Shown here one piece after another: positions 7,225 through 17,759 of a stretch of DNA of 64,000 nt. Under the pieces are notes generated by a model that saw nothing but the letters and a program-made list of their open reading frames with translations, was not told the origin of the DNA and did no database searches. Each line of letters starts with the position of its first letter. The first letter of the stretch is position 1. A program made the position numbers and the translations under genes. The DNA comes from Gordonia alkanivorans NBRC 16433 (GTDB taxonomy: Bacteria > Actinomycetota > Actinomycetes > Mycobacteriales > Mycobacteriaceae), in contig NZ_BACI01000016.1 of assembly GCF_000225505.1 (NCBI RefSeq), forward strand, positions 62,001 to 126,000, read 5' to 3'.

Positions 7225-7248
7225 TAAACTTACCGCTTGGTAAGTTTA
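7225..7248. promoter_or_regulatory. Perfect 10-bp inverted repeat, TetR operator candidate
   Basis: TAAACTTACC, spacer GCTT, GGTAAGTTTA: a perfect palindrome with a 4-nt spacer, 45 nt upstream of the tetR start. A probable -10 (TATCGT) lies just downstream. Related sites with the same spacing lie at 10288-10303 and 17744-17759. Autoregulation by the adjacent TetR is the simplest reading. Confidence 0.75.
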
Positions 7249-7292
7249 TTGGGTATCGTCGTTCGGACACGACAGCGAGGATGGAGTTGGCC

Positions 7293-7895
7293 ATGTCGGG
7301 CGGAACCAAGCGCCTGCCGCGCGCAGTGCGTGAGCAGCAGATGCTCGACGCCGCCGTGAAGGTGTTCGCGCAGAACGGTTTCCGCGAGACCTCGATGGAT
7401 GCCATCGCGTCCGAGGCGCAGATCTCCAAGCCGATGCTGTACCTGTACTACGGCTCCAAGGAGGAGCTGTTCAGCGCCTGCATCGCCCGTGAGTCCGGAC
7501 TCTTCATCGACGCGATGAGCGTCGGCTTCGACCCGTCACTCACCCAGCGCGAGCAGGCCGTCACCGTCATCCGTGAGTTCCTCCGCTTCGTGCACGAGAA
7601 CCGCGAGTCGTGGCGTGTGCTGTACCGCGTCGCGATCGGGACCGCGAGCTTCGCCGGCATCGTCTCCGACAGTCGCCAGCGCGTGACGGAGATGGTCGCC
7701 GCGCTCATCAAGGCCGGCACCACCGTGGAGACCGCCGGCGACATCGACTTCGAGCTCACCGCCGTCGCCATCGTCGGCGCCTGCGAGGCGGTCGCCGACC
7801 GAATCACCGAGGGTGACGTCGACCTCGAGAAGGCCACCAACATGCTCGTCGGCATCGCCTGGCGCGGCCTGAAGGGTGTCGGTACCGACATCTGA
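7293..7895 (+). CDS. TetR family regulator (Rv0238-like)
   Basis: A 200-residue TetR regulator. The N-terminal helix-turn-helix spans about residues 10-55 (AVKVFAQNGFRETSMDAIA, then ISKPMLYLYYGSKEELF), followed by a helical ligand-binding domain. I chose the ATG at 7293 because GGAG lies 6 nt before it; an ATG at 7281 has no properly spaced site. It sits between lpqI and the htdX-fabG4 operon as Rv0238 does. Matching palindromes before this gene, fabG4/fadA2 and fadE5 suggest it controls acyl-chain metabolism genes, with an acyl-CoA-like effector as a plausible but unproven ligand. Confidence 0.88.
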   Translation: MSGGTKRLPRAVREQQMLDAAVKVFAQNGFRETSMDAIASEAQISKPMLYLYYGSKEELFSACIARESGLFIDAMSVGFDPSLTQREQAVTVIREFLRFVHENRESWRVLYRVAIGTASFAGIVSDSRQRVTEMVAALIKAGTTVETAGDIDFELTAVAIVGACEAVADRITEGDVDLEKATNMLVGIAWRGLKGVGTDI

Positions 7896-7902
7896 GGCTT
7901 GG

Positions 7903-7936
7903 CCCTGAGTAGCGAGCTTGCGAGCGTATCGAAGGG
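7903..7936. repeat. Short palindromic dispersed element, copy 1
   Basis: CCCTGAGTAGCGAGC...TATCGAAGGG, just after the tetR stop codon. It shares the CCTGAG start and TCGAAGG end with elements at 30711 and 51122, though its middle differs. It reads like an intergenic palindromic repeat of actinobacterial chromosomes. Confidence 0.5.
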
Positions 7937-7945
7937 CGCTCACAC

Positions 7946-7988
7946 GATCCGTTCCCGCTCACGCGAATGGGGTGAGCGGGAACGGATC
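7946..7988. terminator. Bidirectional terminator between tetR and htdX
   Basis: Perfect 16-bp stem GATCCGTTCCCGCTCA / TGAGCGGGAACGGATC with an 11-nt loop, between two convergent genes. The flanks can extend the stem to about 7939-7996. Confidence 0.75.
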
Positions 7989-8001
7989 TCGTGAGCGAAA
8001 A

Positions 8002-8889
8002 TCAGCCCTTCCGCGTCGTCGCGGTGAGGTGGGGGAATCCCTTGCGACGGTCGCGGATCGCGATGTCGAAGTTGCCCTCGCCGTCGATGCGGCGGGTGTA
8101 GAGGTTCACCTTGGCGGGCAGCAGGATCGGCTTGCCGAACTTGACGTCGTAGGTGACCGCGCCGGGCAGCTGGGCCTCGACGTTTGCGATTGCCGCTGCG
8201 GCGCTCCACATCCCGTGGGCAATCGCCTTGGGGAAGCCGAAGGCCTTGGCGGTCAGGTTCGCCATGTGGATCGGGTTGCGGTCGCCCGATGCGGCGGCGT
8301 ACTCGCGGATGCGTCCCAGGTCCACGGACAGAACCGAATCCGGCGGCGGCGGGGTCTTCGACTTCGGTTCGGGACCGCGCGGCTCGTCGGACAGGCTGGT
8401 CCGCTGCTGCTTGAGGAACGTCGCCGTCTGCGTCGTCACCAGCTCGGTGCCGACGCTGATCTCGCTGATGACGTCGACGAGGATGCCCTTGCGGTGCTCC
8501 CGCAGGTTCTCCGCGTGGGTCTCGATGGACAGCGGCTCGCCGACCTCGATCGGACGCTTCCGCTCGATCTTGTTCGTCATGTGGACCGAACCGATTGCAC
8601 CGAACGGGAACTCGTCCGACGTCAGCAGCTTCATGACCACCGGGAACTGCAGCACGAACGGGTACGTCACCGGCAGGGTGGCGCCGAAGCGCTGACCGGT
8701 TGCATGGCAGTACGCCTGCAGCGCAGCGGGATCGACGCGGACGCCCTCGAGCCGGTAGTGAGTGTCGGGCAGCGGCGCGTCGGCCGGGACGCGGGCCGGC
8801 TTGCCGACGCCCGGCAGCATCCCGGTGACGGCCTTGCCGTACAGCTCGCCGGTGCCGGGGGCGCCGGGAAGAGTGATCGTCTTACCCAT
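8002..8889 (-). CDS. htdX: 3-hydroxyacyl-thioester dehydratase HtdX
   Basis: A 295-residue MaoC/hotdog-fold (R)-3-hydroxyacyl-thioester dehydratase with two hotdog units. The hydratase motif is in the C-terminal half (AAASGDRNPIHMANLTAKAFGFPKAIAHG shortened here to SGDRNPIHM and the following Gly-rich turn). It converts 3-hydroxyacyl thioesters to trans-2-enoyl thioesters in the reductive or oxidative direction. The ATG at 8889 overlaps the fabG4 stop (TGATG), so the two are translationally coupled: ketoreduction by FabG4 then dehydration by HtdX. Order matches Rv0241c-Rv0242c. Confidence 0.87.
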   Translation of the reverse strand: MGKTITLPGAPGTGELYGKAVTGMLPGVGKPARVPADAPLPDTHYRLEGVRVDPAALQAYCHATGQRFGATLPVTYPFVLQFPVVMKLLTSDEFPFGAIGSVHMTNKIERKRPIEVGEPLSIETHAENLREHRKGILVDVISEISVGTELVTTQTATFLKQQRTSLSDEPRGPEPKSKTPPPPDSVLSVDLGRIREYAAASGDRNPIHMANLTAKAFGFPKAIAHGMWSAAAAIANVEAQLPGAVTYDVKFGKPILLPAKVNLYTRRIDGEGNFDIAIRDRRKGFPHLTATTRKG

Positions 8890-10253
8890 CACGCACCCAG
8901 GAATCCCTGGCCGCAGACGCGGACCACGTTGCCGGTGATGGCGCTGCTCGCCGGGTTGGCGAAGTAGGCGACGGTCTCGGCGACGTCGACGGTCTGGCCG
9001 CCCTGCTGCAGCGAGCTCATCAGGCGACCGGCCTCGCGGGTGGCCAGCGGGATCGCCGCGGTCATCTTGGTCTCGATGAAGCCGGGGGCGACGGCGTTGA
9101 TGGTGATGCCCTTCTCGCCCAGGATCGGCGCGTAGGCGTCGACCAGGCCGATGACACCGGCCTTCGATGCGCCGTAGTTGGTCTGGCCGCGGTTACCGGC
9201 GATCCCGGCGATCGACGAGACGTCGATGACCGCGCCGCCCTCACGGAGCGCACCCTTCTCCAGCAGCTTCTCGACGAGGGTCTGCGGAGCGATGAGGTTC
9301 ACCGCGATGACGGCGTCCCAGCGGGCGTCGTCCATGTTGGCGAGCAATTTGTCGCGGGTGATGCCGGCGTTGTTGACGATGATGTCGATGCCGCCGTGGC
9401 GCTCGAGGGCGTGCTCGGCGAGCTTGTCGCCGGCGTCGGGAGCGGTCACATCCAGCGGGAACGCGGTGCCGCCGACCTTGTTGGCCGTCTCCGACAGCGC
9501 GTCCCCGGCCTGCGGGACGTCGGCGGCGATGACGTGGGCGCCGTCGCGGGCGAGGACCTCGGCGATGGTCGCGCCGATGCCGCGGGCGGCGCCGGTCACC
9601 ACGGCGACCTTGCCCTCCAGCGGACGATCCCAGTCCTTCGGGGCGGTCGCGTCGGCCGAACCGACGCGGATGACCTGTGCGTCGACGAAAGCGGACTTGG
9701 CCGACAGCACGAAGCGTACGGTCGATTCCAGGCCGCTCAGACCGGTCTGGGCGTCCGGCGAGACGTACACGAGCTGGACGGTTGAGCCCTTGAGCAGCTC
9801 CTTGCCGAGCGAGCGGGTGAAGCCCTCGAGGGCCCGCTGTGCGACGCGCTCGGACGGATCGGTCACCAGCTCCGGCGTGGTTCCGATGACCAGGAAGCGC
9901 GCGCACGGCGCGGTTGAGCGCATGGCCGGCTGGAAGAACTCGAACAACTGACGCAGCTCGGCCGGGGAGGTGATGCCGGTGGCGTCGAAGACCAGGCCGC
10001 CGTACTTGTCGGCGCTACGGCCGGTCAGGGCGTTCTGGATGAGGTCGTAATCGTCGCCCGAGAGCATCTCCCGGAGCGGTTCGACGAGGCGCCCCGAGCC
10101 TCCGAGCAGCACCGGACCCGGCAGCGGCGGCTCCGACGGCTTGTACCGCCGCAGGGGCGGCGGGACGGGGAGGCCGGCCTGCTTGGCGATGAAAGCGCCC
10201 GGGCCGGAATGGACGAAGCTCGAGTACAGGCCAGTTGTTCCGTTGGCGGCCAT
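8889..10253 (-). CDS. fabG4: 3-oxoacyl-thioester reductase FabG4 (HMwFabG)
   Basis: 454 residues, the length of mycobacterial FabG4. An N-terminal flavodoxin-like dimerisation domain (about 1-200) precedes an NAD(H)-using SDR domain: [16 protein letters not shown] nucleotide loop, [10 protein letters not shown], catalytic Ser-Tyr-Lys in SSIAG and YGASKAG. It reduces 3-oxoacyl-CoA/ACP. The ATG at 10253 has AGGAG upstream. The gene is divergent from fadA2 across a 90-nt promoter region holding a TTACT-N4-AGTAA palindrome, and is first in an operon with htdX. Confidence 0.9.
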
Positions 10254-10287
10254 GTTGGATCTCCTCTGACTGTCGTTCGACAACGAA

Positions 10288-10303
10288 CTTACTGTTGAGT
10301 AAG
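10288..10303. promoter_or_regulatory. Palindrome in fabG4/fadA2 divergent promoter
   Basis: CTTACT, spacer GTTG, AGTAAG. Same core and spacer length as the site before tetR (7225-7248). It lies between the two divergent starts and can affect both promoters. Confidence 0.65.
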
Positions 10304-10342
10304 AATACGCTATAGATACCGCACACGACCCTGGAGATCGAC

Positions 10343-11656
10343 GTGGCAGAGAACAGCACCACCCCGAAGAAGCCCGAGACCCGCACCGAGCGCCCGGTGG
10401 CGATCCTCGGCGGCAACCGCATTCCGTTTGCCCGCCAGGACAAGGCATATGCCAAGGTCAGCAATCAGGAGATGTTCACCGCCGCTCTCGACGGCCTGGT
10501 GAGTCGCTTCAACCTGCAGGGTGAGCAGCTCGGCATGGTCGCCGGCGGCGCCGTGCTCAAGCACGCCCGTGACTTCAATCTCATCCGCGAATCGGTGCTG
10601 GGCTCGGCCCTGTCGCCCTACACCCCCGCCTTCGACATCCAGCAGGCGTGCGGCACCGGTCTGCAGGCCATCACGACCGTCGCCGACGGCATCGCACGGG
10701 GCCGCTACGACGCCGCGATCGGTGGCGGCGTCGACACCACCTCCGACGCCCCGATCGCCGTGGGCGAGGGCCTGCGTCGCCAGCTGCTCGAGGTCAACCG
10801 CGCCCGCTCCACCAAGGACCAGATCCTCGGCGCCGCGAAGCTGCTCACCAAGCTCGGGATCGAGATCCCGCAGAACGGCGAGCCGCGCACCGGGATGTCG
10901 ATGGGCGAGCACGCCGCCATCACCGCCAAGGAATTCGGCATCAAGCGCGCCGACCAGGACGAGCTCGCCGCACGCAGCCACCAGAACATGGCGGCCGCCT
11001 ACGACGACGGCTTCTTCGACGACCTGATCACCCCGTTCATGGGTCTGACGCGCGACCAGAACCTGCGCGGCGATTCGACCGCGGAGAAGCTCGCCAAGCT
11101 CAAGCCCGTCTTCGGTGTCTCCCTCGGCGACGCGACCATGACCGCGGGCAACTCGACCCCGCTCACCGACGGTGCGTCGACCGTGCTGCTGGGCAGCGAC
11201 GAGTGGGCCGCCGAGCGCGGTCTTCCGGTGCTCGCGTACTTCGTCGACAGCGAGACCGCTGCAGTCGACTACGTGAACGGACCCGACGGCCTGCTCATGG
11301 CCCCGACCTACGCCGTGCCGCGCCTGCTGGCCCGCAACGGTCTCACCCTGCAGGACTTCGACTTCTACGAGATCCACGAGGCGTTCGCGTCGGTGGTGCT
11401 CGCGACGCTGCAGGCGTGGGAGTCCGAGGAGTACTGCAAGGAGCGACTGGGCCTCGACTCGGCGCTCGGACCCATCGACCGGTCCAAGCTCAACGTCAAC
11501 GGCTCCTCGCTCGCCGCGGGTCACCCGTTCGCCGCGACCGGCGGCCGCATCGTCGCGCAGGCGGCGAAGCAGATCAAGGAGAACGGCGGCGGTCGCGCGC
11601 TGATCTCGATCTGTGCCGCCGGCGGCCAGGGCGTCACCGCGATCATCGAGGGCTGA
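10343..11656 (+). CDS. fadA2: Acetyl-CoA acyltransferase (thiolase) FadA2
   Basis: A 437-residue thiolase. The nucleophilic Cys lies in [13 protein letters not shown] (about residue 97). The C-terminal motifs are [12 protein letters not shown] (catalytic His) and [13 protein letters not shown] (second Cys). It cleaves 3-oxoacyl-CoA in beta-oxidation or runs the reverse condensation. The start is GTG with GGAG 7 nt upstream. It is divergent from fabG4-htdX, the arrangement of Rv0243/Rv0242c, and shares the operator-like palindrome. A strong terminator follows. Confidence 0.9.
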
Positions 11657-11691
11657 TCCCTCGTCCGGCACGGTCCGGACCGAGCAGAGGG

Positions 11692-11730
11692 GACGGATCG
11701 AGCGACGAATCGCTCGATCCGTCTCCTTTT
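11692..11730 (+). terminator. Rho-independent terminator after fadA2
   Basis: A 14-bp perfect stem (GACGGATCGAGCGA / TCGCTCGATCCGTC) with a CGAA tetraloop, followed by TCCTTTT. Confidence 0.85.
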
Positions 11731-11817
11731 GGCACCCCGAATGGGGTCCTTCGTCACATGTTTGGACGAAACGTGGCCCCGAACGTGTCATCGGCCGAAA
11801 AGTAGCGTAAACATGAA

Positions 11818-11858
11818 GACAGCTCGGCAGAGCTGTCAGACCCCCGACCCGACAGCTC
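11818..11858 (+). promoter_or_regulatory. Repeated GACAGCTC motif with hairpin, upstream of vanW-like gene
   Basis: GACAGCTC occurs at 11818-11825 and 11851-11858. The first copy forms a perfect 7-bp hairpin with GAGCTGT at 11830-11836 (loop GGCA). It lies just upstream of the TACATT box that seems to drive the leader ORF and vanW-like gene, a position that suits an operator. Nothing identifies the binding protein. Confidence 0.4.
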
Positions 11859-11884
11859 AGCCGGGGCACCTACATTTCTGGGGT

Positions 11885-11932
11885 ATGAGTTCTGCGGCCA
11901 CCACCCCGACTGGCCCAGGTAGTCAGCCGTGA
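11885..11932 (+). CDS. Leader ORF (15 aa) coupled to vanW-like gene
   Basis: ATG at 11885 opens MSSAATTPTGPGSQP and stops with a TGA whose last base is the first base of the vanW-like ATG (TGATG). A TACATT box lies 8 nt before the ATG (11871-11876), so the ORF could be the leaderless first cistron that delivers ribosomes to the next gene, which has no good binding site of its own. Inferred from layout only. Confidence 0.4.
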   Translation: MSSAATTPTGPGSQP

Positions 11933-13629
11933 TGGATGGAGTTGTGACCACGAGCGCCCGGCGAGCACGCCACGCGGTACGCGCTGCGGTCGTCGTCGTC
12001 ATCATTTTGGCGCTCGCCCTCTCCATCGACTTCGTCGCCACCCGCGATCACTCCGCACGCGGAGCCGTCGTCGGCGGGATCTCGGCGGGCAACCGCCACG
12101 CCGCCAAGCTGAACCCCGTCATCGACGAGCTGACCGCCCGCTCCACGCAGCCGGTCGTCCTGCGCACCCCCGAGGGCTCGGCCGAGGTCGCGCCGACCGA
12201 ACTGGGGCTGACCTTCGACGCGGACGCGACCCGCGCACGTCTTCTCGAACAGCCGCGCAACCCGCTCACGCGCTTCCTGTCGCTCTTCGGTCGTGACCTC
12301 GACGTCGAGCCCGTCGTGACGATCGATCCCGCCGCCATGAACAAGGCCCTCGACGCCCACCGCAGGTCGCTGGAGAAGGCCGCGGTCGAGGGTGGAGTCC
12401 ACTACGACGGCGCCACGCCGGTCGGCGACGAGCCGGCACCGGGTGAGCGCGTCGCCCGCCAGGCCGCCGCCGTCGTGCTCGTCGACCACTGGCTCGACGG
12501 CACGCCGATCGACATGCCGATGGAACCGTTCTCGCCGACCGTGACCTCGGAGGTCGTCGCCGCCACCGTGGCCGGCCCCGCCGACCGCGCGACGTCGGGG
12601 TCGGTGAAGCTCATCGACCGGCGCAAGCGCACGGTCGAGGTTCCGGCAGGCGACATCGGGGCGATGCTGACCTTCGTGCCCGACGGAAAGGGCGGTCTCA
12701 CCCCGCACGTCGACGTCAAGAAAGCGCGCGAGTCTCTCGGCCCCGATCTCGATCCGTCCCAACGCCCCGCCGTCAGTGCGACATTCAGCCTCGCCAGTGG
12801 CCGCCCGACCGTCGTGCCCGCGATCACCGGTTCGAAGATCAACTGGGACAAGACACTTCAGGCGCTCGCCACGACGGCGACCGCAGCCGGTGGCAACCGT
12901 ACCGCCGATGTCGTCTACGACGATGTCGACCCCAAGCTCACCACCGACGCCGCCCGCAAACTCGGTGTGCGCGAACTGATCAGCGAGTACACCACCGACG
13001 GCTTCTCGAGTGCCTCCGGTGAGAACATCCGCCTCGTCGCGGCCGAGGTCGACGGCGCGTTGGTCCTGCCCGGCAAGGTCTTCTCGCTCAACGGCCACAC
13101 GGGTCCGCGAGGCACGGCCGAGGGTTACGTCGACTCGACGATCATCAACAACGGCCGCGCCGCGACGGCCGTCGGCGGCGGCATCTCCCAGTTCGCGACC
13201 ACCCTCTACAACGCCGCGTACTTCGCGGGTCTCGAGGACGTCGACCACACCGAGCACGCGTATTACATCTCGCGCTATCCGGAGGCCCGGGAGGCCACCG
13301 TCTTCGAAGGCGCCATCGACCTGAAGTTCCGCAACAACACCCGGCACGGGGTGCTCATCGAGACCGGTTGGTCGCCGTCCGCGGTGACCGTGAGGTTGTG
13401 GGGCACCAAGGCATTCGAGGTCGAGTCGATCACCGGCGAGCGGACCGACCCCACCGAACCGGAACGGATCAAGCTCCCCAAGGGCGACGACTGCATTGCG
13501 AGCAGCGGCAGCAAGGGCTTCACGACGTCGAACACGCGGATCATCCGCGACGCGAGGACCGGCCGTGAGATCAACCGGTACACCCGCACCGTGCGGTACG
13601 CACCCGAGCCGAACGTGAAGTGCGTGTAG
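11932..13629 (+). CDS. VanW family membrane-anchored protein
   Basis: A 565-residue protein with one N-terminal transmembrane anchor (residues 16-37), then an extracytoplasmic region with peptidoglycan-binding-4-like repeats, then the VanW domain (about 330-480) with FSLNGHTGPRGTAEGY and GGGISQFATTLYNAAYFAG. VanW domains occur in Gram-positive envelope proteins; the biochemical role is not established, though cell-wall binding is likely. The start could be GTG 11929, ATG 11932 or GTG 11944; I favour ATG 11932 because it overlaps a leader ORF stop. Confidence 0.8.
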   Translation: MDGVVTTSARRARHAVRAAVVVVIILALALSIDFVATRDHSARGAVVGGISAGNRHAAKLNPVIDELTARSTQPVVLRTPEGSAEVAPTELGLTFDADATRARLLEQPRNPLTRFLSLFGRDLDVEPVVTIDPAAMNKALDAHRRSLEKAAVEGGVHYDGATPVGDEPAPGERVARQAAAVVLVDHWLDGTPIDMPMEPFSPTVTSEVVAATVAGPADRATSGSVKLIDRRKRTVEVPAGDIGAMLTFVPDGKGGLTPHVDVKKARESLGPDLDPSQRPAVSATFSLASGRPTVVPAITGSKINWDKTLQALATTATAAGGNRTADVVYDDVDPKLTTDAARKLGVRELISEYTTDGFSSASGENIRLVAAEVDGALVLPGKVFSLNGHTGPRGTAEGYVDSTIINNGRAATAVGGGISQFATTLYNAAYFAGLEDVDHTEHAYYISRYPEAREATVFEGAIDLKFRNNTRHGVLIETGWSPSAVTVRLWGTKAFEVESITGERTDPTEPERIKLPKGDDCIASSGSKGFTTSNTRIIRDARTGREINRYTRTVRYAPEPNVKCV

Positions 13630-13661
13630 ACCGATCGGAGTGTTTCGCGCGGGGTCTTTAC

Positions 13662-13679
13662 CGAGCGATAGAACGCTCG
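13662..13679. repeat. Inverted repeat upstream of SDR gene
   Basis: CGAGCG-ATAGAA-CGCTCG lies immediately before the TAGGCT -10 box of the SDR gene, so it overlaps the -35 region. It could be an operator or just a weak terminator of the vanW-like gene; there is no T-run. Confidence 0.35.
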
Positions 13680-13680
13680 A

Positions 13681-13686
13681 TAGGCT
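13681..13686 (+). promoter_or_regulatory. Leaderless -10 box (TAGGCT) of SDR gene
   Basis: TAGGCT is followed by 7 nt and then the GTG start at 13694, which fixes that start. Confidence 0.5.
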
Positions 13687-13693
13687 CCGAGTC

Positions 13694-14473
13694 GTGGATA
13701 TCAATGGAGCTAGTGCAATCGTCACGGGTGGGGCGTCGGGGATCGGCGCAGCTGCGGCTCGCCAGCTGGCGGCCAAGGGTGCGAAGGTCGTCGTCGCCGA
13801 CCTGAACGCCGACAAGGGGGAGGAGCTTGCCAAGGAGATCGGCGGTGTCTTCGTCAGCGTCGACGTCACCTCGACCGAACAGATCGAAGCCGCCATCAAC
13901 GCGGCCACCGAACTCGGCCCGCTGCGTGCCCTGGTCAACTCGGCCGGCATCGGCTGGGCACAGCGCACCATCGGCCGCGACGGGGAGTTCGGTTCGGCGC
14001 ACAACCTGGACGCCTACAAGAAGGTCATCGCGATCAACCTGATCGGCACCTTCGACTTCATCCGTCTCGCCGCCACCGCGATGAGCCGCAACGAGCCGCT
14101 CGACGCCCACGGCGAGCGCGGCGCGATCGTCAACATGGCCAGCGTCGCCGCCTTCGACGGCCAGATCGGTCAGGCGTCGTACTCCTCGTCCAAGGGCGGC
14201 GTCGTCGGCATGACCCTGCCGGTCGCGCGTGACCTGGCGGCGGTCGGCATCCGCGTCAACACCATCGCCCCCGGCCTGATCGACACCCCGATCTACGGCG
14301 AGGGCGAGGCCGCCGAGGCGTTCAAGGCGAAGCTGGGCGAGTCGGTCCTGTTCCCGCACCGTCTGGGCGCTCCCGACGAGCTGGCCTCGATGGTCGTCGA
14401 GCTGGTCACCAACAGCTACATGAACGCTGAAGTGATCCGCGTCGACGGCGGCATCCGGATGCCTCCGAAGTAG
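13694..14473 (+). CDS. SDR family 3-hydroxyacyl-CoA dehydrogenase (HSD10-like)
   Basis: A 259-residue short-chain dehydrogenase. The NAD loop is [15 protein letters not shown], then NSAGIG, then catalytic Ser ([14 protein letters not shown]) and Tyr-x3-Lys (YSSSKGG), then the [12 protein letters not shown] loop. Sequence style matches type II 3-hydroxyacyl-CoA dehydrogenase/HSD17B10-like enzymes, which oxidise short 3-hydroxyacyl-CoA with NAD+. That fits the surrounding beta-oxidation genes. The GTG start at 13694 is supported by a -10 box 7 nt upstream. Exact substrate is uncertain. Confidence 0.82.
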
Positions 14474-14496
14474 TCACCAGCACACATCACCACTCG

Positions 14497-14530
14497 CCGA
14501 ACCCACTGCCCCGCGGGGTGGTGGGTTCGG
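14497..14530. terminator. Bidirectional terminator, SDR / alcohol dehydrogenase
   Basis: Stem CCGAACCCAC / GTGGGTTCGG with an inner CCCCGCGGGG palindrome, between two convergent genes. Confidence 0.7.
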
Positions 14531-14545
14531 CCGTTCGTGGGTTAC

Positions 14546-15601
14546 TCAGGCCTGTAGGACCACCTTGAGTGCCTTGGTCTCCGCGGCCCGGCCGAAGACG
14601 TCGTAGGCCTCCATGATGTCGCCGAGGGCGAAACGGTGGCTGATGAACAGGTCGGGGTCGATCCGACGCTGCGCGACCAGCTTGAGCAGGACGCCGAGCG
14701 TGTCGGTGTTCACCAGGCCCATCGAGACGTTGATGTTGGAGATCCACAGATCCTGGAGAGCGAACTCCACCGGGGCGCCGTGCACGCCGACGTTGGCGAC
14801 ATGACCCGCGGGCCGGACGACATCCAGACACATCTGGAAGGTCTGCGGGATGCCCACCGCCTCGATCGCGACGTCGACGCCGAGCCCGTCCGTCATCGCG
14901 AGGACCTGGTCCTTCCAATCGGCATCCGACGACACGACGCCGTCGGTCGCGCCGAAGGACTTGGCCTGCTCGATGCGGTTGGGGTCGATGTCGATCGCGA
15001 TCACGCGGCTCGGTCCGTAGAGTCCCGACGTCGCGATCGTCGCGAGACCCACCGGTCCGGCTCCGACGACGGCCACCACGTCACCGGGTTTGACGTTGCC
15101 GTAACGGATACCGATCTCATGCCCGGTCGGCAGGATGTCGCTGAGGACGACGCCCTGCTCGGGCGTGACGCCCGACGGCAGTTTGTAGACCGAGGTCTCG
15201 GCGTAGGGGACTCGTACGAGCTCGGCCTGGGTGCCGTCGATGAGGTGTCCGAAGATCCAGCCGATACCCGACGCCCCCTCGTCACCGAGGCAGTGTGAGT
15301 GCACTCCCTGCTTACAGAAGTCGCACTTGCCGCAGGCCGATATGCACGACAGGATCACCTGGTCGCCGACTGCGAGAGTGGTTACCGCAGGGCCGATCTC
15401 GGTGATCGTCCCGACGCCCTCGTGGCCGAGGATTCGCCCCTTCTCGACCGCGGGGACATCACCTTTGAGGATGTGCAGATCGGTGCCGCAGATGGTGGTG
15501 GCGTCCATCTTCACGATGACGTCGGTGGGTTGGAGGATCTTGGGATCGGGTACGTCGTCCCAGCTCTTCTTGCCCGGTCCGTGAAAGACGAGTGCCTTCA
15601 T
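14546..15601 (-). CDS. Zinc-dependent alcohol dehydrogenase family protein
   Basis: A 351-residue medium-chain dehydrogenase. Catalytic zinc ligands are in TTICGTDLHILKG and GHEGVG. The four structural-zinc cysteines are in ISACGKCDFCKQGVHSHC. The Rossmann loop is VVGAGPVGLA. It oxidises an alcohol or reduces an aldehyde with NAD(P)(H); the branch is the threonine/formaldehyde-dehydrogenase-like group, substrate unknown. The ATG follows GGGAGAG. It stands alone between two strong terminators. Confidence 0.83.
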   Translation of the reverse strand: MKALVFHGPGKKSWDDVPDPKILQPTDVIVKMDATTICGTDLHILKGDVPAVEKGRILGHEGVGTITEIGPAVTTLAVGDQVILSCISACGKCDFCKQGVHSHCLGDEGASGIGWIFGHLIDGTQAELVRVPYAETSVYKLPSGVTPEQGVVLSDILPTGHEIGIRYGNVKPGDVVAVVGAGPVGLATIATSGLYGPSRVIAIDIDPNRIEQAKSFGATDGVVSSDADWKDQVLAMTDGLGVDVAIEAVGIPQTFQMCLDVVRPAGHVANVGVHGAPVEFALQDLWISNINVSMGLVNTDTLGVLLKLVAQRRIDPDLFISHRFALGDIMEAYDVFGRAAETKALKVVLQA

Positions 15602-15726
15602 GGCTCTCCCTCGAGTTGTCCCCGACTGCCTGTGGTTCCCTTCCCGAGGCTAGGAAACATCGACGGGACTCGCCCGGAGCATCTCGTATTGAGATGCGAC
15701 CGCAACCGGAAACCCACCACAGATCA

Positions 15727-15760
15727 GTAAACCCACCGCCTCGCAAGGCGGTGGGTTTAC
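15727..15760. terminator. Bidirectional terminator after fadE5
   Basis: Perfect 14-bp stem GTAAACCCACCGCC / GGCGGTGGGTTTAC with loop TCGCAA; the T/A-rich stem ends allow action on both strands. It lies 22 nt past the fadE5 stop codon. Confidence 0.8.
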
Positions 15761-15781
15761 CGATCAAGGGTGGGTGTGCTG

Positions 15782-17617
15782 TCAGAAGGCCGCTTCGTCG
15801 AGCTCCATGATGTCGTTGTCGACGTTCTCGACGGTGACACGGACGGCGGTGAGAAGCGGCAGCATGTTCTTGGCGAAGAAGCTCGCCACGGCGACCTTGC
15901 CCTCGTAGAAGGCCTTGTCGCTGTCCGATGCGCCGTTGTCGAGTGCGGCGAGGGCGATCTCGGCCTGGCGCAGGAGCAGCCAGCCGATCATCAGGTCGCC
16001 GACGGACATCAGGAAGCGGACCGAACCGAGGCCGACCTTGTACAGCTCGGCCGAGTTCTCCTGGGCGGCCATGAGGCTGCCGGTCAGGGAGGCGGCCATT
16101 GCCTGCACGTCTTCGAGGGCGGTCTTCAGCAGGGCGCGCTCGGACTTCAGGCGACCGTTGCCGGCCTCGGAGTCGATGAAGCTCTGGATCTGGCCGGCGA
16201 CGTGTGCCAGCGCCTGGCCCTTGTCGCGGATGATCTTGCGGAAGAAGAAGTCCTGCGCCTGGATGGCAGTGGTGCCCTCGTAGAGCGAGTCGATCTTCGA
16301 GTCACGGATGTACTGCTCGATCGGGTAGTCCTGCAGGAAGCCGGAACCACCGAGGGTCTGCAGGGACTCGTGGCCGAGGGTGCCGTAGGCGCGCTCGGAA
16401 CCGACACCCTTGACGATCGGGAGCAGCAGATCGTTGACGCGAGCGGCCATCTCGGCGTCGGCGCCGGAGACGATCTTCGCGGCGGCGACGTCCTGGTGCG
16501 ACGCGGTGTAGAGGTAGACCGCACGCAGGCCCTCGGCGTAGGCCTTCTGGGTCATGAGCGAACGACGCACGTCCGGGTGGTGGGTGATCGACACGCGCGG
16601 TGCGGCCTTGTCGGTCATCTGGGTCATGTCGGCACCCTGGATGCGCTCCTTGGCGTACTCGAGCGCGTTCAGGTAGCCGGTCGACAGGGTCGAGATGGCC
16701 TTGGTGCCCACCATCATTCGAGCGTGCTCGATGACCTCGAACATCTGGGCGATGCCCTTGTGGACCTCGCCGACGAGCCAGCCCTTGGCGGGGATGCCGT
16801 GCTGACCGAAGGTGACCTCACAGGTGGCCGACGCCTTGATGCCCATCTTGTGCTCGACGTTGGTGACGAAGACGCCGTTGCGCTCGCCGAGTTCACCGGT
16901 CTCGAAGTCGAAGTGGAACTTCGGCACGAAGAACAGCGACAGGCCCTTGGTGCCCGGGCCGGCGCCCTCGGGGCGGGCGAGCACCAGGTGGAAGATGTTC
17001 TCGGTCATGTCCTGGTCGGCCGAGGTGATGAAGCGCTTCACACCGTCGATGTGCCAGGAGCCGTCCTCCTGCTGGGTGGCCTTGGTGCGGCCGGCGCCCA
17101 CGTCCGAACCGGCGTCCGGCTCGGTGAGGACCATGGTGGCGCCCCAGCCGCGCTCGGCGCAGATGGTGGCCCACTTCTTCTGCTCGTCGGTGCCGTTGTT
17201 GTAGAAGATCTCGGAGAACCCGGCGCCGGCGGCGTACATGAACACCGGCGGGTTGGCGCCGAGGATCATCTCGCCGATGGCCCAGTACAGCGAACGCGGG
17301 GCGGGGAGGCCGCCGAGCTCCTCATGGATGCCGATCTTGTCCCAGCCGCCTTCGATGAGGGCGTTGTAGGACTTCTTGAAGCTCTCCGGGATGGTGACAC
17401 TGTGGGTCTCCGGGTCGAAGACCGGCGGGTTGCGGTCGGCGTCGACGAAGGATTCGGCGATGGGGCCCTCGGCGAGTGCCTTGACCTCGCGGAGCATGTC
17501 GACGGCGGTCTCGTGGTCGAGATCGCCGAAGTCGCCCGACTCCAGCACCTTGTCGAGCTCGAACAGCTCGAACAGGTTGAACTGCAGGTCGCGCATGTTG
17601 CTCTTGTAATGGCCCAT
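15782..17617 (-). CDS. fadE5: Acyl-CoA dehydrogenase FadE5
   Basis: A 611-residue FAD-dependent acyl-CoA dehydrogenase, the length of mycobacterial FadE5, catalysing the first step of fatty-acid beta-oxidation over a broad chain range. The N-terminus [16 protein letters not shown] matches the family. [13 protein letters not shown] is the FAD-binding strand, and the catalytic Glu is in [16 protein letters not shown]. The ATG at 17617 has AAGGAATT upstream and was preferred over an in-frame codon at 17689. A TTACT-N4-GGTAA palindrome downstream of a TATATT box lies upstream, linking it to the tetR/fabG4/fadA2 sites. Confidence 0.92.
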
Positions 17618-17743
17618 GGTGAATTCCTTCTCTGGTGTGGCCGTATGCGTGATGACGGTGTTGTCTTCCAGGTCCCGGTCCGACCCCACTCGGTTGAAGT
17701 GGGTACCGGCCGGGCGTGGTGTAGCTGTCTCGGTTCGAGCTAA

Positions 17744-17759
17744 GTTACTCGCCGGTAAC
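17744..17759. promoter_or_regulatory. Palindrome in fadE5 promoter
   Basis: GTTACT, spacer CGCC, GGTAAC. The core TTACT-N4-GGTAA matches the sites at 7225 and 10288. It lies directly downstream of a minus-strand TATATT box (17764-17769), where a bound repressor would block initiation. Confidence 0.6.

Follow-up and report, generated by a model that had tools for sequence, protein, structure and literature searches.

The 64-kb stretch of Gordonia alkanivorans DNA analyzed here, hereafter the window, carries a gene for a TetR-family regulator close to predicted beta-oxidation genes, together with three copies of a palindrome that are very likely operators of this regulator (Table 1). The fabG4-htdX unit and fadA2 diverge from a common intergenic gap, and fadE5 lies beyond them. 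An earlier note on this DNA had named these genes, and profile searches bear out the assignments: the reductase and the acyltransferase score above the cut-offs of curated FabG4- and FadA2-type models, and the other products carry MaoC, acyl-CoA dehydrogenase and TetR_N domains. The precise names HtdX, for the MaoC-domain protein, and FadE5, for the acyl-CoA dehydrogenase, are our assumption from gene position. Orthologs of fadE5 with 75 to 100% identity adjoin exact copies of the palindrome in most compared genomes. Alignment with relatives places the conserved FadE5 start, MGHYKS, at 17617 and puts that of the TetR, MSGGTKR, probably at 7293 rather than 7281.

Table 1. Predicted operators, genes and candidate promoter elements in the window.
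Feature	Position	Strand	Remarks
Predicted operator, tetR promoter	7225..7248		perfect 10-bp inverted repeat, 4-nt spacer; core 7230-7243
TetR-family regulator, FdmR (Rv0238) ortholog	7281..7895	+	TetR_N, PF00440
HtdX-type MaoC-domain dehydratase, second gene of the fabG4 unit	8002..8892	-	PF01575
fabG4-type 3-oxoacyl reductase	8889..10253	-	NF006110 (PRK08261), 682.8 bits, cut-off 410
Candidate -35 of fadA2, TCGACA	10277..10282	+	at least 4/6 match to TTGACA at -12 (66/74) or -13 (8/74) from the operator
Candidate -10 of fabG4, TAAGTT on the minus strand	10286..10291	-	overlaps left half-site; TANNNT in 74/74
Predicted operator, fabG4/fadA2 gap	10288..10303		core 10289-10302
Candidate -10 of fadA2, TAAGAA	10300..10305	+	overlaps right half-site; window copy lacks the final T of TANNNT
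fadA2-type acetyl-CoA acyltransferase	10343..11656	+	NF006740 (PRK09268), 769.6 bits, cut-off 539
fadE5-type acyl-CoA dehydrogenase	15782..17617	-	acyl-CoA dehydrogenase models, below curated cut-offs
Predicted operator, upstream of fadE5	17744..17759		core 17745-17758

We scanned the window with the core motif TTACYNNNNRGTAA (TTACY-N4-RGTAA), using 100 dinucleotide shuffles as a null model; in the larger sequence sets, the same pattern reversed served as a control. The exact core occurs three times, with no fourth copy in the window, against a shuffle mean of 0.01; none of the shuffles reached three. All three copies lie at the promoters to which the earlier note had assigned them, that of fadE5 about 134 bp upstream of the conserved start. 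The first is indeed a perfect 10-bp inverted repeat, its arms pairing at 10/10 positions; the arms of the second and third pair at 6/6 and 5/6. When up to two mismatches were allowed, the window yielded 12 matches where 6.3 were expected, a number reached by 2 of the 100 shuffles, showing that the strong information is confined to the exact form.

Conservation was assessed in 80 named loci, which represent the top-scoring 80 among 557 relatives. They contain 161 exact sites (164 with those of the window) versus none for the reversed control, and 160 of the 161 were assigned to the tetR, fabG4/fadA2 or fadE5 promoters; the remaining one (L069:46) also precedes fadE5, in a truncated locus to which the assignment rule did not apply. 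The conservation at orthologous promoters that the earlier note had called for was found at all three. The tetR promoter has an exact site in 74 of the 80 loci. The six misses include two with a one-mismatch version by eye (L066 and L085), one in which tetR directly follows htdX (L060), and two from Mycobacterium/Mycolicibacterium (L107 and L110). In 73 of the 80 loci, fabG4 and fadA2 are close, divergently oriented neighbors no more than 10 kb from tetR, and the gap between them, evaluable in the 73 loci with both gene starts present (7 set aside), contains the exact site in every case. The fadE5 promoter could be evaluated where 300 bp of upstream sequence was available (18 loci; 62 set aside); it has an exact site in 13 and a site with at most one mismatch in all 18, often two sites about 27 bp apart. 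Among 4,000 random 300-nt stretches of the same loci, 20 had a one-mismatch but no exact match, and a further 129 held an exact match, as expected from overlap with the real sites.

Two observations on the loci themselves deserve mention. A contig labelled Kitasatospora arboriphila (L056) carries an entire Williamsia-like tetR-htdX-fabG4/fadA2 block, 70 to 84% identical to that of Gordonia; its label or assembly looks wrong. In the window, a gene for a VanW-domain protein (11929-13629) lies between fadA2 and fadE5, and a gene that looks similar by eye is present at the equivalent place in another genome (G017, L244:2502-4181).

The window TetR has the TetR_N domain and a TetR C-terminal domain (Pfam), and its closest relative among the best 80 of 557 is a Gordonia namibiensis protein with 99% identity. 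In each of 31 Mycobacterium genomes it has a single ortholog, at 48 to 56% identity; in M. fragae (L107) the regulator is accompanied by htdX, fabG4, fadA2 and fadE5, as in Gordonia. All 80 loci share the stretch ISKPMLYLY in the recognition helix without change, as would be expected for an invariant operator. A TetR helix-turn-helix (HTH) protein is encoded beside htdX-fabG4/fadA2-fadE5, and predicted operators are found at genes of fatty-acid degradation, fadE5 among them. This places the regulator in a known class, FdmR, in agreement with the Rv0238 type proposed by the earlier note. The primary study of FdmR (Rv0238) is reportedly that of Dong et al. (PNAS, 2021), on Mycobacterium marinum / M. 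tuberculosis. A Protein Data Bank (PDB) structure, 3F1B, named generically as a "TetR-like transcriptional regulator," matches the product of window positions 7281-7892 with 227.9 bits over residues 5-199 and is very probably that of an FdmR ortholog; we take it to come from Rhodococcus jostii RHA1.

Work on mycobacteria describes FdmR as repressing genes for fatty-acid degradation and modification in response to long-chain acyl-CoA (PMC12403877) and as a key regulator of fadE5 as well as of further genes for fatty-acid catabolism (PMC9262360). Other reports present it as steering fatty acids away from catabolism (PMC10501769) and as governing lipid chain length in M. marinum (PMC10701892). 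Rv0238 is also listed among five TetR regulators common to all mycobacteria analyzed, including M. leprae (PMC4482099). fadE5, a reported target in those organisms, bears a predicted operator in Gordonia, and the long-chain acyl-CoA reported as the mycobacterial effector points to the ligand class that the Gordonia regulator may recognize.

Other identities for the window TetR were rejected on the basis of curated models: it scores 33.6 bits with that of the mycofactocin regulator MftR (TIGR03968, cut-off 224.9) and just 26.8 bits with that of KstR (NF033703, cut-off 280). KstR motifs are of the AAC-NN-GTT type, which differs from TTACY-N4-RGTAA. KstR itself is described as a TetR repressor of a lipid and cholesterol degradation regulon in mycobacteria (PMC1995591). 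FasR comes nearest, as its model (NF053731) gives the best curated score and a FasR-type structure, 6o6p, is the second solved-structure relative (55.8 bits). However, that best score, 79.7 bits, is below the cut-off of 330, and the recognition helices differ (ISKPMLYLYY versus VSKPVLYQHF in FasR). FasR is reported to bind a long acyl-CoA ligand, a class that would be shared by the window TetR if it behaves like FdmR, and it is presented as an activator of fas-acpS and thus of fatty-acid synthesis (PMC7382501), in contrast to FdmR, a repressor of degradation.

The whole Gordonia genome contains 8 exact sites versus 0 for the reversed pattern. The earlier note had noticed such sites nowhere else, which holds for the window but not for the genome, and the regulon that it proposed (tetR, fabG4/fadA2 and fadE5), while supported at all three sites, is too small by five further exact sites. 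Four of these five are located at acyl-CoA dehydrogenase or electron transfer flavoprotein (ETF) genes: one is separated by 10 bp from the start of a gene for an acyl-CoA dehydrogenase (L001), one lies upstream of etfB (ETF domain), which is followed by etfA (L002), and two, 23 bp apart, precede another acyl-CoA dehydrogenase gene (L004 and L005). The fifth lies upstream of a Y_phosphatase3 gene (L003). In three further Gordonia genomes (G117, G038 and G008), exact sites were found at the tetR, fabG4/fadA2, fadE5 and both acyl-CoA dehydrogenase promoters in 3/3 and at etfB in 2/3. All 7 exact sites of the close relative G117, which form 6 loci, are at these six conserved promoters. Elsewhere, 3 of 10 loci in G038 and 5 of 12 in G008 adjoin none of the 20 Gordonia query genes used in our comparisons, and a fourth G038 locus matches just a 25% ABC paralog.

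Single-mismatch sites are a different matter. With at most one mismatch, the genome yields 53 sites versus 36 for the reversed control, so that such sites are mostly noise unless conserved elsewhere, and as a class (45 versus 36) they were rejected as a target list. Five were kept as candidates because orthologs of the genes concerned bear exact sites in other genomes: those of an EtfD-like gene (L181), a DUF4442 gene (L185), an enoyl-CoA hydratase gene (L177), an AMP-binding FadD gene (L187) and an ABC ATPase gene (L191). In this genome, every site of the EtfD-like gene (a neighboring pair) and of the DUF4442 gene contains one mismatch, and we infer from their relatives that they may belong to the regulon here as well. 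No orthologous exact site was found in the compared genomes for malate synthase (L176), a second enoyl-CoA hydratase (L186), a FabH-like gene (L194) or a MarR gene (L178), none of which we count as a target; the L186 query matched L120 at a mere 25%, and L120 belongs to the ortholog of L177.

The private look of L003, one of the eight genomic sites, would suit an origin of the matches by chance or base composition. We rejected this origin, which we hold to be practically negligible as an account of the three window sites, given the shuffle expectation of 0.01, the reversed control (0 versus 8) and the conservation of the site in 73 of 73 evaluable fabG4/fadA2 gaps.

The fabG4/fadA2 gap has a particular geometry, which we compared in 74 sequences, window included. 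On the fadA2 side, a TTGACA-like hexamer is found 17 or 18 bp before the TAAG.. of the right half-site. On the fabG4 side, the left half-site supplies TAAGTT in 74/74, and a TTGACA-like hexamer precedes it by 17 bp in 38/74. Hexamers elsewhere in the flanks equal the TTGACA-like score in 2.2% of cases. The arrangement looks like two face-to-face, fully overlapping promoters with the operator as their common spacer. Some features speak against such mirror-image promoters: TANNNT is present on the fadA2 side in just 42/74, the fabG4 -35 hexamer of the window is poor (2/6 by eye), and the -10 letters are also the operator's own extension and hence not independent of it. Likewise, the overlap of a -10 element with the right half-site at tetR and fadE5 is not independent evidence, because the extended palindrome alone yields it.

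We consider it highly probable that the palindromes are operators through which the window TetR, the Gordonia FdmR ortholog, represses its own gene, fabG4-htdX, fadA2 and fadE5, with release by acyl-CoA. The sites, their conservation, the targets and the orthology of the TetR are observed here, and repressor action, fadE5 as a target and the effector are taken from the accounts of mycobacterial FdmR cited above; DNA binding and response in Gordonia, like the promoter geometry, are inferred. A dimer of FdmR sitting on TTACY-N4-RGTAA would occlude the -10 region and prevent transcription of tetR, fadE5 and the two divergent units, fabG4-htdX and fadA2; elsewhere in the genome the same sites are found at two more acyl-CoA dehydrogenase genes and at etfB. 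After uptake and activation of fatty acids, the regulator would bind long-chain acyl-CoA and leave the DNA, inducing beta-oxidation along with its electron acceptors. It is very improbable that FdmR, at some promoters, instead activates through these operators or leaves transcription unaffected, with an output in Gordonia other than repression. The placement of the operators relative to transcription starts is predicted only, and the related FasR is described as an activator (PMC7382501); however, at fabG4 and fadA2 the half-sites fall on candidate -10 hexamers, which suits occlusion, and FdmR is described as a repressor (PMC12403877).

We extended the motif count to 121 genomes of the family, which together contain 1,268 exact sites versus 191 reversed ones. 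Outside three genera, labelled g3, g5 and g8, the counts are 1,239 versus 155 in 110 genomes, and the forward count is the higher in 109 of these. The three genera gave 9 exact versus 23 reversed sites (g3, 7 genomes), 10 versus 12 (g5, 2 genomes) and 10 versus 1 (g8, 2 genomes). FdmR was searched for in 61 of the 121 genomes with a threshold of 1e-20 and matched in 54, or 53 when the g5 match (G004, 28%), which scores as FasR-like, is discounted; in the three g3 genomes searched, the best matches reach only 25 to 27%. The sites thus track the regulator, with the exception of g8.

Regulon content was compared across genera by matching about 3 kb around exact sites with the 20 Gordonia query genes, in Mycobacterium fragae (12 sites), Rhodococcus qingshengii (21), Tsukamurella ocularis (16) and a genome of another genus, G019 (9). 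Exact sites at the fabG4/fadA2, etfB, EtfD-like, L004-type fadE and DUF4442 genes occur in all four, those at fadE5 in three, and those at the tetR promoter also in three, Mycobacterium being the exception. The EtfD-like protein, 41% identical in Mycobacterium, has only 4Fe-4S domains in Pfam, and its gene name is our assumption. The L001-type fadE is a target in Gordonia only, among the compared genera.

Some targets outside the window merit separate notice. The DUF4442 gene lies near the ribosomal-protein genes rpsJ/rplC, with an exact site in each of the four other-genus genomes (L131, L141, L121 and L171), which suggests a role of its product in acyl-CoA metabolism. In M. fragae an exact site (L134:1501-1514) is found 199 bp upstream of the isocitrate lyase gene, and the one-mismatch site L176 of the Gordonia genome adjoins the malate synthase gene; a link of the operator to the glyoxylate shunt is possible. 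Upstream of the EtfD-like gene, operators come in pairs with starts 15 bp apart (exact in g8, L201 and L206; one mismatch each in Gordonia, L181), as they do upstream of the Tsukamurella fadE5 (L158), an offset hinting that two dimers may sit side by side.

The self-operator behaves differently between genera. In genera other than Mycobacterium, 26 of 29 further loci have an exact copy. Of 30 Mycobacterium loci (L209-L238), in contrast to the intact copy of Gordonia, only 3 have an exact self-site and 10 have one with at most one mismatch; the left half, TTACYCT, is often kept and the right half is degraded. M. fragae keeps the exact fabG4/fadA2 site. Because the self-site is mostly degenerate there, autorepression should not be extended to Mycobacterium.

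Several points weigh against the preferred reading. In the g8 genomes G007 and G037 (L199-L208, L239 and L240), 9 of 10 sites are at fadE5, etfB, the EtfD-like gene (a pair 15 bp apart) and a fadE, and no FdmR was found in G007 (99% complete) or in G037, where at 95% completeness its absence is uncertain. Since operators are present without a detected FdmR, another protein can probably read such sites in g8. The phosphatase site L003 has no counterpart beside relatives of that gene in the three other Gordonia genomes, and the gene was dropped as a regulon member. Loci beside no relative of a query gene make up 5 of 11 in M. fragae, 10 of 21 in R. qingshengii, 7 of 15 in T. ocularis and 2 of 9 in G019; by eye, part of these non-fitting loci adjoin other lipid genes and part do not. 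Finally, the 80 named loci, being the best of 557, are biased to near kin, and FdmR presence was examined in just 61 of the 121 counted genomes.

A rival reading is that another TetR, such as FasR or a local paralog, is the main reader of the palindromes, with FdmR as one of several users. The best matches to FdmR in G007 and G037 (24 to 25%) score as FasR with 266.3 and 280.8 bits, under the cut-off of 330, and FasR, which is likewise reported to respond to long acyl-CoA (PMC7382501), may be the reader of the g8 sites. In M. fragae, an exact site (L122:1501-1514) separates another TetR gene from a monooxygenase-like gene, and other TetRs may share this operator type. Two g8 TetRs with local HTH similarity (L245 and L246) and two more (L249 and L250) gave no match at E<=1, and a fifth (L248) gave a 26% match; none of the five showed the FdmR recognition helix in the alignments, and none of their loci contains a site. 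Overall, a main reader other than FdmR is improbable. Sites are not enriched in g3 (9 versus 23), where the best match of one genome is only a weak, apparently FasR-like TetR, the recognition helices of FdmR and FasR differ as described above, and the fdmR promoter itself bears the site in those 26 of 29 loci of FdmR-bearing genera other than Mycobacterium.

FdmR remains our preferred reader of the Gordonia operators. A bolder proposal, which we regard as possible rather than probable, is that the operator code outlives its regulator: throughout the family, TTACY-N4-RGTAA would mark an unchanging core of genes for fatty-acid oxidation, namely fadE5, etfB, the EtfD-like gene, another fadE and, in genomes that have them, fabG4/fadA2. 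In g8 a non-orthologous regulator would have taken over these sites. The fabG4/fadA2 operator would be locked in place as a double -10 element, with one dimer switching both promoters.

Points worth following are the mirror-image promoter, the decay of the self-site in Mycobacterium and the g8 operators without FdmR; the last two pose the puzzles of which protein reads the operators in genomes without a detected FdmR and why the self-operator degenerated in Mycobacterium. The solved but generically named structure 3F1B can be flagged as a probable FdmR. Gordonia and its relatives matter for the degradation of hydrocarbons, rubber and lipids. Our analysis would extend the FdmR regulon from mycobacteria to these bacteria, with a genome-wide list of targets, and would tie acyl-CoA dehydrogenases and their electron acceptors together under one type of operator.

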